Assembly: GCA_947167105.1 (NCBI GenBank)
Contig: CAMVGU010000001.1
Span: forward strand, 1-64,000
DNA: 64,000 nucleotides
DNA from: an uncultured Selenomonas sp.
GTDB lineage: Bacteria > Bacillota > Negativicutes > Selenomonadales > Selenomonadaceae
Reading direction: 5' to 3'
The notes below the pieces were generated by a model. The model saw only the letters and a program-made list of their open reading frames with translations. It did no database searches and was not told the DNA's origin. Shown here piece by piece: positions 31,014 to 40,766 of the stretch. The position numbers and the translations under genes were made by a program. Every line of letters starts with the position of its first letter. Within the stretch, counting starts at the first letter, position 1.

Positions 31014-32174
31014 ATGAGTGGATTGCGTTTCCTGACGGCCGGGGAGTCACACGGCCCTTGCCTGACGGCTATTTTGGAGGGTCTGCCTGCGGGCCTGAAG
31101 CTCGATCGGGCGGCTATAGACAAGGATTTGGCACGGAGACAGCAGGGCTACGGTCGCGGTGGTCGCATGAAGATTGAGACGGACAGAGCTGAGATTCTGT
31201 CCGGAGTGCGTTTCGGCGAGACGCTGGGCGGGCCCATTACGATATCAGTAGCCAATAAGGATTACGGGAACTGGGGGGGCCGTATGGCTCCCTTTGGTGA
31301 GCCAGAGGGTGAAAAAGTGACGGCGGCGCGTCCGGGGCATGCAGATCTCACGGGCGTACTTAAGTATGCCCGCACGGATGTGCGGGATATTCTGGAGCGT
31401 TCCTCGGCACGGGAGACGACGATGCGTGTTGCCGTGGGCGCAGTGTGCAAGGAATTCCTGCGTGTCCTTGGCATTACGGTGGTCTCCCAGGTGCTGGAAA
31501 TCGGCGGCGAACACGTGGATGAGACCGCAGTTGACCGCTCCAGCCTGGGGAAGGAAATGGGCTCGGAACTGAATTGCTATGATGGGGCAGCAGAGAAACG
31601 CATGAAAGCGAAAATAGATGCAGCCAAGGCTGCAGGTGATACCCTGGGCGGCATCTTTGAGGTAACAGTTCGCGGCGTTCCGGTGGGCCTGGGCAGTCAT
31701 ATCCAATGGGACAGACGCCTTGATGCGCGGCTGGCCGGAGCCATGATGTCCATCCAGGCCATCAAGGGCGTGGAAATCGGCGCGGGCTTCAAATGCGCCC
31801 AGCGTCCGGGGAGCGAAATCCATGATGAGGTGTTCCTGGATAAGAAGGGGCGGCCTTACCGCAAGACGAACCGCGCAGGCGGACTGGAGGGGGGCATGTC
31901 GAACGGCGAGGAGATTGTCGTGCGGGCGGTGATGAAGCCTATCCCGACGTTGATGCAGCCCCTGCAATCTGTGGATATCGAGAGCAGGCAGGCTGTGTTG
32001 GCCTGCAAGGAACGCAGCGATGCCTGCGCAGTCCCGGCTGCATCGGTAGTCGGTGAAGCCATGGCTGCCTTTGTCGTGGCCGAGGCTGTCTGCGAGAAAT
32101 TTGGCGCTGATGCGCTGGCAGATGTGCAGGCCGCAATCGCGTCCTATAATGAAAGGCTTGAGCGTATGTGGTGA
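31014..32174 (+). CDS. aroC: Chorismate synthase
   Basis: The 386-residue enzyme makes chorismate from EPSP with reduced FMN. Signatures are LTAGESHGPCLTAILEG at the N-terminus, RRQQGYGRGGRMKIE, RPGHADLTGVLKY, the family stretch ARETTMRVAVGAV and, late, GGLEGGMSNGEEIVVR. The ATG at 31014 is favoured over 30999 because GAGGTG lies between them at proper spacing and homologues start here. It is the first gene of aroC-aroK-aroB. Confidence 0.97.
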   Translation: MSGLRFLTAGESHGPCLTAILEGLPAGLKLDRAAIDKDLARRQQGYGRGGRMKIETDRAEILSGVRFGETLGGPITISVANKDYGNWGGRMAPFGEPEGEKVTAARPGHADLTGVLKYARTDVRDILERSSARETTMRVAVGAVCKEFLRVLGITVVSQVLEIGGEHVDETAVDRSSLGKEMGSELNCYDGAAEKRMKAKIDAAKAAGDTLGGIFEVTVRGVPVGLGSHIQWDRRLDARLAGAMMSIQAIKGVEIGAGFKCAQRPGSEIHDEVFLDKKGRPYRKTNRAGGLEGGMSNGEEIVVRAVMKPIPTLMQPLQSVDIESRQAVLACKERSDACAVPAASVVGEAMAAFVVAEAVCEKFGADALADVQAAIASYNERLERMW

Positions 32175-36276: not shown

Positions 36277-37653
36277 ATGGAAAACTGGAAGCATATCCTG
36301 GGCGGCCTTTATGAGCCGGTTGACAAGCTGCAGGGTATCGGGGAAGATGGCGGCTGGCTCATATATGACAAGATAGGAAGGCGAACCTGTGTACTGAAGA
36401 AGCGGGAGCTTGCCTCAAAGGAGCTTTACGAAAAACTGCGGGAGATGAAAAATCCCCATCTGCCGGAGCTATATCGCCTGATGGAGCAGGAAGGGTATCT
36501 GTGGGTCATAGAGGAGCATATTGAGGGCAGCAATCTATCTGACAGGCTGACCTATGAGGGCGGAGCCATGGAGGAGGAACTGGCTGTTCATGTGCTGGAG
36601 GGATTGTGCCGCTGTCTGGCGCCGTTGCATAGGCGTGGGATCATCCATCGTGATATCAAGCCCGCCAATATTATGCTGGACAAGAGCGGGCAGGTGAAAC
36701 TCGTTGATTTTGGCATTGCCCGTCAGGTGAAAGAGGATGGGGAGGCTGATACGGAATTTTTGGGCACCAAGGGGTATGCGCCTCCTGAGCAGTATGGCTT
36801 TGGCCAGACAGATGCCAGGAGCGACATCTACTCACTGGGAGTTACCATGCAAAGGCTACTGGGCAAGGAGTACAGGGGATTCCTGCAGCCTGTGCTGTCA
36901 AAATGCACAGCACTTGACCCCGTGAATCGCTACGGCTCTGTCGAGGAAATCCTGGCAGAGCTGGATAGCAGGCAGGGCGGAAGGAATTCGCTAAAGAAAG
37001 CCGGGGCTTGCTTTGCTCTGGCGGCTGTCGCGTTGCTGACTATTTGGGGGGCGGGAGTCGTCCCCGGCGAGGCACCGCCTAAACAAGATGTGTCTGTTGC
37101 GGAGGTAAGCGGGGAGCAAGGGGAGAGCGTGGAAAAGGACGATGATACAAAAGCCCCGGCTCAGTCTCAGGCAGAACTTCAAAGCAAAGAGACAGGCACC
37201 ATGACAGAAGCTGTGCCCTCCGAAGGGTTAGAGCCGGAAACAGTGAATGAAGCAGCCACGACACCGTTCAGATACCCGTTCCTGCAAAGATCCCAATGCA
37301 CCTTCACTTTGCAGGGCAGACCCTTGGAAGAGGGCCTGGGCATACCTGCCGCAACCTGGCAGCAATGGGATGAACAGGGCGAAAGCAGGATATTTCCCTC
37401 GGACTGGACAGTAGCGATGCACATAGAGAATGCCTCCGCAGCGGATTTCACCGACCCTGTCCTGGAAATTTCCAATGGTGGCAAAAGCGAACGCCGAAGC
37501 CTTGCCACTATATCTTCCGGCACAGCCAGGGATATTGCTATTCCCCTGGGGGGAAGCCCCATCCCCGGCAGGCTCTACCAGTTGGGAGTGCGTCTGGAAG
37601 AAGGGGGAGGAGAATCCATGTATTGGAATTTCCAGTTTTATCTGGAAAGGTAA
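36277..37653 (+). CDS. Membrane-anchored eukaryote-like Ser/Thr protein kinase
   Basis: The 458-residue protein has an N-terminal kinase domain (1-235): a weak glycine loop (GIGEDGG), CVLKK (ATP-binding Lys), IIHRDIKPANIML (catalytic loop), VDFGIA and GYAPPEQYGFG (the APE-like motif). A membrane helix at about 242-262 is followed by an acidic, Gln/Thr-rich linker and an extracytoplasmic beta-rich domain of about 120 residues. The outer part has no PASTA repeats, unlike PknB. The divergent HTH gene upstream suggests a regulatory pair. What it phosphorylates is unknown. Confidence 0.85.
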   Translation: MENWKHILGGLYEPVDKLQGIGEDGGWLIYDKIGRRTCVLKKRELASKELYEKLREMKNPHLPELYRLMEQEGYLWVIEEHIEGSNLSDRLTYEGGAMEEELAVHVLEGLCRCLAPLHRRGIIHRDIKPANIMLDKSGQVKLVDFGIARQVKEDGEADTEFLGTKGYAPPEQYGFGQTDARSDIYSLGVTMQRLLGKEYRGFLQPVLSKCTALDPVNRYGSVEEILAELDSRQGGRNSLKKAGACFALAAVALLTIWGAGVVPGEAPPKQDVSVAEVSGEQGESVEKDDDTKAPAQSQAELQSKETGTMTEAVPSEGLEPETVNEAATTPFRYPFLQRSQCTFTLQGRPLEEGLGIPAATWQQWDEQGESRIFPSDWTVAMHIENASAADFTDPVLEISNGGKSERRSLATISSGTARDIAIPLGGSPIPGRLYQLGVRLEEGGGESMYWNFQFYLER

Positions 37654-37938
37654 TGCAAAATCCTATGAAATTGAAAACAGGCAAGGCAGCTTCCATCTGG
37701 CAGATGGGACTGCTTTTTTTGCATTTGCTGTGAATTTCTGCATATATGGCTGTGTCCTGCAGGGACACCACAATTTTTTGGTGATATGCTACTATAGGAC
37801 AATAGAGGAAGGGGGCGAGAGAGAGAAGACTTTTTTCATAAAAATAAAAAATGATACTGAGAGTGATAATTTTACATCTGAGAGTCACAACATGAAAAAT
37901 CAAAATGTTTTATAATATTAGGAGGGAGGGATAGGTGG

Positions 37939-38169
37939 ATGTCAGTGTCTATAAATGAGAAAAAGGTTATGCTGGGCCTTAATATATCCTACTATCGGAA
38001 AGCACGCTCAATGACTCAGACTGAGTTGGCGGAGCAACTGGAAATCACCAGCAACTACCTGTCCCAAGTAGAGCGTGGCTCGAAGATACTTTCCGTGGCT
38101 AAGATTTTCAGGGCAGCAGAGATCCTGGGCGTGGATGAGAAGGACTTCTGGGATTTCAGCAGGAAATGA
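37939..38169 (+). CDS. Small XRE-family transcriptional regulator
   Basis: A 76-residue protein that is almost entirely an XRE HTH: LGLNISYYRKARSMTQTELA, ITSNYLSQVERGSK and a third helix region ending in EKDFWDFSR. Such single-domain proteins act as repressors of nearby genes or phage-like functions. It lies between the kinase and the flagellin-like gene, 134 bp upstream of the latter, so control of either is possible. The ATG at 37939 has GGAGGGAGG upstream. A TATAAT-like -10 is present at about 37911. The 37654-37938 gap is otherwise AT-rich, with no gene seen. Confidence 0.8.
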   Translation: MSVSINEKKVMLGLNISYYRKARSMTQTELAEQLEITSNYLSQVERGSKILSVAKIFRAAEILGVDEKDFWDFSRK

Positions 38170-38302: not shown

Positions 38303-40766
38303 ATGGCTATGTTGATGGCGCATAACAGTTCCTCGGCTATGGCATTGGGGGAATTGAACAAGAATAATAGCCGACTGTCAAAGGATTTGCAGAAAGTTTC
38401 TTCTGGCATGAAGATAAACAGCGCCGAGGACGGGGCGGCTGAGTATGCTATGTCTGAGAAGATGAGGGTTATGGTGCGGTCACTAAATCAAGATTTGCAA
38501 AATTCGCAGATTGGCATAAATATGGTGAGAGTAGCAGAGGGGGGCATCCAGAGCATTGTAGATGAGTTGCGTGATATGAAAGCCATGGCAATTAACTCTG
38601 CCAATGACCATAATAGCGAACTTGACAGGGCTGTACTGCAAAAGGAATTTGCCAGTCATATGGACGGAATCAATGAGATTGCCAGTACTACCGAGTACAA
38701 CAGAATTCCTTTGTTAGATGGCAGATGGTATGGGCCAAGATTAAAGAGCAGGGCAGTCACCATTGAAGGAACTACTGCAGGGACAGGAACTTCTGGTACT
38801 GGTGGGACAGGCAGTGCTGGAGGCGGGACTGGCGGAAGTGAAGGAACCAGTGGCTCCGGTGGGACGAGTGGATCGGGAAGTACAGACGGTACTGGCAGTA
38901 CAGGTGGAGCCAGTGGAACAGGCGGTACCAGTGAGACATCATCAGGCCTGCCTGTGCGTCCAACATCTGAAAATCCTACCATAATTCCCTCTGGAAATTA
39001 CACGATTTCTGTAGATGGTGTTTATAAGCTGGATGCGGGCTATAAAGGCACAATAACTATCACAGCCCAAAATGTTGAACTTCAGCAGACGAATGAGAAT
39101 GAGGATACATACATTGACTGTACGGCAGACCATCAAAATTTATGGCTGAATGGAATTCATATAAAAAACAAAGCGGCTGGGCAAGGTATATTGGTGGAAA
39201 AATCTATTATAAAATTTAATGGAACAGGTAATACGCTGAATTTAAGTGGCAATAATTATTTGTTCAACAATTCCTCCAAAACAAAAGCTATAATCAATGT
39301 TGGTGATGGCTTGGTTATAAATAATGCAGATGGGACTGGCGGTTTAAGCTGTACCAGTGCTCCTAAAAGTGGTGCAAACTTTATATCTCATGCAGCTTGC
39401 ATTGGTTCAGATGTTGGTGAGGCCAGCAGTGGATATATCATTATCAATGGTGGAATTATAGCGTGTGGCGCTGACGAGGGTGGTCAGGCATACACTACTT
39501 CTTATGATGGCGGCGCACATGGAGCCATTATAGGAAGCGGAAAAGATGCCAGCATAGGCATGATTGCTATAAACGGTGGGAAAATTATAGTGGAGAGTCG
39601 CTTTGGCGCGGCTATAGGTTCGGGCTATAATGGCACTGTCAATGGAAATATTGTGATTCGTGGAGGAGAAATAGAGGCAACGGCAAGGAGCAATTCTCAT
39701 GGCATTCAAGGCATATGGGAACATTCTGCAGGAGCGGCTATAGGTGCGGGTGAAAATGGTTCTGTCCATGGAGATATAATCATCAAGGGGGGGCAATGTC
39801 ACAGCTCTTAGTCAGGGGCAGGGGGCAGCTATCGGCAATGGTGGTTTTGAAGCTGTTTCAAAGGCAGGCTCTGTTGGAAACATTGTCGTAAAGAATTGTA
39901 CTTTGTCTGCTAAATCTTTCAGAGGTGAAGCTATAGGGCGAGGAGTAATAGATCGAGAAACTCATTACAATACGTCGTCAGGGATGTATACTTGGGGATA
40001 TTGGAAAGATGCTAAGATAGTAGATGCTGTTGTAAATAACGCTATTGGTGGCAATGATACTGTGGGGAATAAAAATATTTATGGTGGTACATTTGATCCA
40101 GCTTATAGATATAGCATTTCAGGAGCAACATTTTATCAAATATACCAGCGTGATATAAGTGATACTACTGGCAGCGACGCTCCGGATGGGGATACCGGTG
40201 ACCCGCCGGAAAGTAAAATACAAGCAGAGGAAACTGGTGGTACTGAAACTGGAGGCACAGAAGGCGGCAATGAATCTGGAAGCACGGAAATTGGCGGAAC
40301 TGAAACGGGAGAGTCAGGAACAGAAGAAAATAATGGAAGTTATACAGCCTATGTTTATGATGCCATAGAGGGTCACCCTCTGATTATTCATACAGGCCCC
40401 AAGGCGAATCAGAATTTTCGTGTCTATATAAATGATATGCATACAGATGCTATGGGCTTGAAGGGTGTGGCGGTAGACCCAATAGAAAAAGCGCTGGAAG
40501 CTTTAGGGAAACTGGATGCAGCTTTGGAATATGCACTAAATGAAAATGTTTGCATGGGTTCCTACCAGGAGCGTTTGCAAGAAACAGTGGATAATCTTAC
40601 TATACAGCACGAAAACGCCAATGCTTCTGACAGTACTATTCGTGATGCCGATATGGCCAAGGAAATGGTGGTCTTCGTGAAGGATAACATCCTCACACAG
40701 GTGGCTCAGTCCATGCTGGCCCAAGCCAATCAGAGTGCCGGAAGCGTGCTGAATTTATTGCAATAG
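38303..40766 (+). pseudogene. Flagellin-like protein with beta-helix insert, split by a frameshift in a 7-G tract
   Basis: Two frames make one protein. The first (38303-39811) has a flagellin N-terminal domain (VSSGMKINSAEDGAAEYAMS), a Gly/Thr/Ser-rich linker, and a beta-helix-like array of repeats of the form AAIGSG...G-I-I-I-GG. The second frame, shifted +1, continues the same repeats (NVTALSQGQGAAIGNG), then a second Gly/Thr/Glu linker and a flagellin C-terminal domain (STIRDADMAKEMVVF...SMLAQANQSAG) ending at 40766. The switch is at seven Gs, 39787-39793; six would restore one frame of about 820 residues. The repeat register continues through the break, so the gene is recently broken, phase-variable or miscalled. 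The ATG has GGAGGGGGAGAG upstream. Confidence 0.75.
39787..39793 (+). other. Seven-G homopolymer at the frame switch (candidate phase-variation site)
   Basis: The run lies in the codons of an IIIKGG beta-strand repeat. Loss of one G joins the upstream and downstream frames. Runs of this type slip during replication. Confidence 0.6.

Follow-up and report, generated by a model that had tools for sequence, protein, structure and literature searches.

The window, a stretch of 64,000 nucleotides from an uncultured Selenomonas sp. (GenBank assembly GCA_947167105.1, contig CAMVGU010000001.1), contains two overlapping open reading frames that carry the two ends of a flagellin, together with a kinase gene and a small regulator gene upstream on the same strand. 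The features of the locus, in window positions, are as follows.

36277–37653, + strand: Ser/Thr protein kinase gene (Pkinase, E = 1.2e-33).
37752–37769, + strand: palindrome GTGTCCTGCAGGGACACC (also given as GTGTCCTGNNGGGACACC), a candidate operator or promoter element.
37939–38169, + strand: small XRE-type regulator gene, 76 amino acids (HTH_3, E = 2.2e-12), just upstream of the flagellin.
38303–39811, + strand: upstream open reading frame of 502 amino acids, with the flagellin N-domain, a linker and the greater part of the beta-helix insert (stop codon TAG, 39809–39811).
38318–38725, + strand: Flagellin_N domain (PF00669; profile match, E = 7.8e-30).
38765–38965, + strand: low-complexity Gly/Thr/Ser linker 1, from the translation.
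38987–39941, + strand: right-handed beta-helix insert running across the frame break, from AlphaFold models, PDB matches and homology search (limits approximate).
39780–40766, + strand: downstream open frame, with the end of the beta-helix, linker 2 and the flagellin C-domain (stop at 40766).
39787–39793, + strand: run of seven Gs (G7) at the frame break, exceeding the homologous stretch of the orthologue L115 by one base.
40137–40373, + strand: low-complexity linker 2, from the translation.
40506–40760, + strand: Flagellin_C domain (PF00700; profile match, E = 4.7e-19).

Both flagellin terminal domains score well above the Pfam cut-offs, but the assembly places them in different frames. The overlap of the two frames is confined to 39780–39811 and includes the seven Gs, which fall within a G-rich pair of Gly codons. 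The initial annotation had described an N-domain frame and a C-domain frame meeting at this run, and all of its coordinates proved correct; its forecast of a single frame of about 820 codons on dropping one G was borne out by translation, since a shift of one base further at G7 gives 820 residues with no stop. No other lesion is found across the 323 codons of the downstream half. Both linkers are of low complexity, as had been suggested, and rich in Gly, Thr, Ser and Glu. The AAIGxG...GG repeat had been proposed to keep register over the break, and the full-length alignment agrees: HGDIIIKGG before the break and NVTALSQGQGAAIG after it pair with NGNIIIKGGNIKARSQGFGAGIG of the intact orthologue. 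From this orthologue, the two Pfam domains, the AlphaFold model and the PDB structure matches, we conclude that the two frames are parts of a single split gene, encoding a flagellin that bears a beta-helix insert.

The orthologue (L115) was found by a scan of genome contigs in a Selenomonadaceae MAG from water-deer rumen, and its insert is 66% identical to that of the window. It has an uninterrupted frame of 822 codons in the order flagellin N-domain, Gly/Ser linker, beta-helix, linker, flagellin C-domain. A DNA alignment through the break shows that L115 has AAAGGCGGAAAC at this site, with one base fewer than the window and no homopolymer. Selection could be gauged against this single distant orthologue, with synonymous sites saturated: the N-domain shows 69% identity and a dN of 0.24, and the C-domain 72% identity and a dN of 0.19. 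Two more genomes, of the window's genus, encode intact insert flagellins, with open frames of 682 and 651 codons. In a family-wide search the insert domain was present in 62 of 189 genomes, either in flagellins or in large non-flagellin proteins. Among the loci fetched, insert-bearing flagellins occur in at least 21 Selenomonadaceae genomes, and 14 of these encode the N-domain, insert and C-domain in one frame. The family of beta-helix-insert flagellins is widespread in the Selenomonadaceae, and we found no description of beta-helix-decorated flagellins in the literature searched. Frame breaks are seen in about 7 of the 21 insert flagellins, mostly in draft assemblies and mostly without a homopolymer; those other than the window's are located elsewhere than at its site. 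A higher breakage rate of insert flagellins relative to others was considered and dropped: the six genomes compared had been picked because they had breaks, and of their ordinary flagellins that were visible in full, roughly 2 of 15 were broken as well. Separately, in a non-flagellin protein (L117, 1593–3470) this beta-helix domain is joined to a flagellinolysin-like peptidase (HELTH motif; NF033876, E = 2.7e-53).

We characterized the insert by structure prediction and superposition. An AlphaFold model of the insert alone, built from six sequences, is a beta-helix with a mean pLDDT of 73.5 and a pTM of 0.79; it is good up to about residue 330 of 426, and the part beyond the break contributes additional strands. 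A full-length model from three sequences was weak (mean pLDDT 53). The best structural match of the insert model is Cthe_2159 (PDB 4phb; Z = 23.0, RMSD of 2.0 Å over 215 residues, 22% identity). This alignment spans the frame break, and the next group of matches lies at Z = 17.6. Foldseek alone gave E-values that were not significant, the best being 0.013. At the sequence level, the insert did not match PF14262, and a PDB sequence search with the insert profile returned chance matches only; the Beta helix repeat model PF18889 was matched by the L115 orthologue below the cut-off and by a related protein above it. The insert of a beta-helix into a flagellin, as originally annotated, was thus borne out by the predicted model and the PDB matches. 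Since PF14262 is not reached by sequence, we describe the insert as having a predicted Cthe_2159-like fold rather than as a member of that family. Cthe_2159 of Clostridium thermocellum (PF14262; PDB 4phb and 4peu) is a beta-helix with cellulose and polygalacturonic acid as ligands (PMC6712302). The likeness, a right-handed beta-helix, comes from a predicted model, and the window insert differs in being carried on a flagellin. A comparable adhesive fold type is found in the beta-solenoid of the L. reuteri SRRP adhesin (5nxk), which ranks third among the matches of the full-length model (Z = 17.2), and in the beta-solenoids of fibrillar adhesins (PMC9210967), although neither of these is flagellin-borne. 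Judged by these structural relatives, the insert may have a polysaccharide-binding or adhesive role.

The split gene resembles ordinary bacterial flagellins (PF00669/PF00700) in having both terminal helical domains at its ends, and differs from them in having as its variable region a long beta-helix carried on Gly/Ser/Thr linkers. A foreign functional domain in the variable region is also the design of flagellinolysins, the proteolytic flagellins (PMC5595980). These contain an HExxH metallopeptidase, whereas the window insert is a beta-helix and no HExxH motif was found in the 820-residue reading; the flagellinolysin model NF033876 matches only its C-terminal part (residues 644–746). No beta-helix is among the top ten inserted flagellin domains listed in that survey (PMC5595980). 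Elsewhere in the window genome, the HExxH motif identifies two flagellinolysin-type genes. On contig C14, at about 28.0–31.5 kb (L010, 4009–7503), a flagellinolysin-type flagellin (HEMTH) is fused head-to-tail to a second flagellin in one frame of 1165 codons with no stop between them. A junction 54% identical to this one is present in another genus (L122, genome G129), which indicates that the fusion is not a local artefact.

What, then, explains the break? The account we favor, at somewhat better than even probability, is that a dispensable gene for an accessory flagellin with a Cthe_2159-like insert was recently split by slippage of a single base, and that the break is not a dedicated switch. 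In this account, the variable region of the flagellin would have been replaced by the right-handed beta-helix on flexible linkers, and the intact protein would be built into the filament alongside the other flagellins, where it would expose a domain for polysaccharide binding or adhesion. One extra base in the Gly-Gly codon pair would lead to a 502-residue product without the C-terminal D0/D1 helices. These helices are required for flagellin polymerization, so this product would be unable to polymerize. Because the protein sequence of the downstream half has been conserved and its frame is otherwise undamaged, the break should be recent relative to the split from L115, or else unreal. The gene is essentially undecayed, in keeping with a slip that is probably recent. 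Of the six genomes of the genus, only three were found to have the insert, and Flagellin_N matches number 11 in the window genome, including a weak one; thus, the decorated flagellin gene looks dispensable.

After a recent slip we rank an assembly or sequencing error, followed by reversible switching. An error, leaving the gene intact in the organism, is the most credible of the alternatives but still unlikely. It would account for a single lesion in an otherwise perfect frame and for the intact orthologues, and the assembly is a draft of 66 contigs. Against it, G7 and G8 tracts elsewhere in the assembly mostly leave long frames open: of 26 that were sampled, 24 lie within open frames of at least 225 codons, although in some cases the counted frame may be on the non-coding strand. 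The G7 at 31273, in a nearby aroC-like gene, is in frame.

The initial annotation had inferred that the decorated flagellin is turned on and off reversibly, through slippage in the G run, an interpretation that we regard as improbable and that our comparisons do not support. The break does coincide with a G run, and its length just passes the limit used in a Neisseria survey, in which G/C tracts below 7 are classed as weak phase-variation candidates (PMC5084427). The in-frame state, however, would be G6, which is expected to be fairly stable. The same tract was sought in homologues, where the L115 orthologue lacks a homopolymer at the site and the other insert flagellins show no conserved tract. 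The position also argues against a switch: the poly(A)/poly(T) tracts studied across prokaryotes are concentrated at gene 5' ends (PMC2831843), and this G run comes late in its gene. Nor is G7 unusual here. Its location at the break, as annotated, holds, but the run is not special, since the window has five G7 runs (31273, 39787, 52280, 53060 and 61033) and the genome 268 overlapping 7-G/C positions, and such runs are normally harmless in this genome. Tracts of at least nine Gs are few, and only one, a 9-G tract in an mnmE (trmE)-like reading frame (G000:C10:9555-9563), is clearly inside a recognizable gene, where it is in frame. The longest tract seen, of 17 Gs, lies outside any long ORF (G000:C7:55098-55114). 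An 11-G tract (G000:C14:28135-28145; L010, 4136–4146) forms part of a short hairpin between genes, immediately ahead of the point at which the second flagellinolysin gene starts, and could affect expression through spacing. A scan of viral contigs for other alleles found no copy of the break site, and the scan of genome contigs, with one genome per species, gave homologues and no further isolate of the window species. The window tract is like the homopolymer contingency loci of Neisseria and Campylobacter in placing a frame break at a G run, and differs from them in being short, unconserved and not unusual for its genome.

Better support for phase variation comes from a related genome, G128. 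It encodes two flagellins on different contigs, C175 (L140) and C95 (L146/L091), with tracts of G14 and G10, respectively, in one and the same N-domain loop. As assembled, both are out of frame, and one of the two carries the beta-helix insert. These are strong candidates for phase variation, and far better ones than the window gene. Conservation of the N-loop tract across the family was considered and rejected: among the 189 genomes only G128 has the pattern, apart from one chance-like match in G166. Some Selenomonadaceae flagellins may therefore be phase-variable, but not at the site in the window. A wider scheme, in which the Selenomonadaceae switch carbohydrate-binding decorated flagellins by G-run slippage, in the window insert and twice in the N-loop of the relative, and in addition control them by a dedicated XRE regulator, seems to us doubtful.

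A programmed +1 ribosomal shift, or RNA-polymerase slippage, would yield some full-length protein from the gene as assembled. The shift required is indeed +1, at GGG GGG C, and coding conservation continues downstream, but the L115 orthologue needs no such event and there is no conserved slip site, which makes this explanation very improbable. That the locus encodes two independent proteins, as its two entries in the mechanical ORF list might suggest, can practically be dismissed, as the second frame offers no start-type codon before a TTG at 39903, already within the beta-helix, and the orthologues are single genes.

Small XRE genes related to that of the window lie about 30–55 bp upstream of decorated flagellins on the same strand at L017, L020, L024, L026/L118 and L088. 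Including the window, this adjacency is seen in six genomes, five from the window's genus and one from a different genus, and no XRE gene was present upstream of standard flagellins among those examined. The orthologous flagellin in L115 also has a similar kinase ORF beside it (L115, 4773–6269), with the XRE gene on the far side of the kinase. The palindrome has one copy in the 3.15-Mb genome and none in five congeners, and recurs with two center bases changed 81 bp before the ATG of the L115 orthologue. The XRE regulator may bind the palindrome. Control of the gene through the adjacent regulator and the shared palindrome is more likely than control by a G-run switch.

Taken together, the supposed switch is probably an ordinary mutation or an error, and the main interest of the locus lies in the decorated-flagellin family, some members of which come with their own small regulator. 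The host is a rumen or gut bacterium in which the decorated flagellin is one of about ten flagellin genes. These bacteria, several of them recorded in rumen samples, may have flagella that present a domain of a plant-polysaccharide-binding type in many copies. If so, the filament would be an adhesion organelle.
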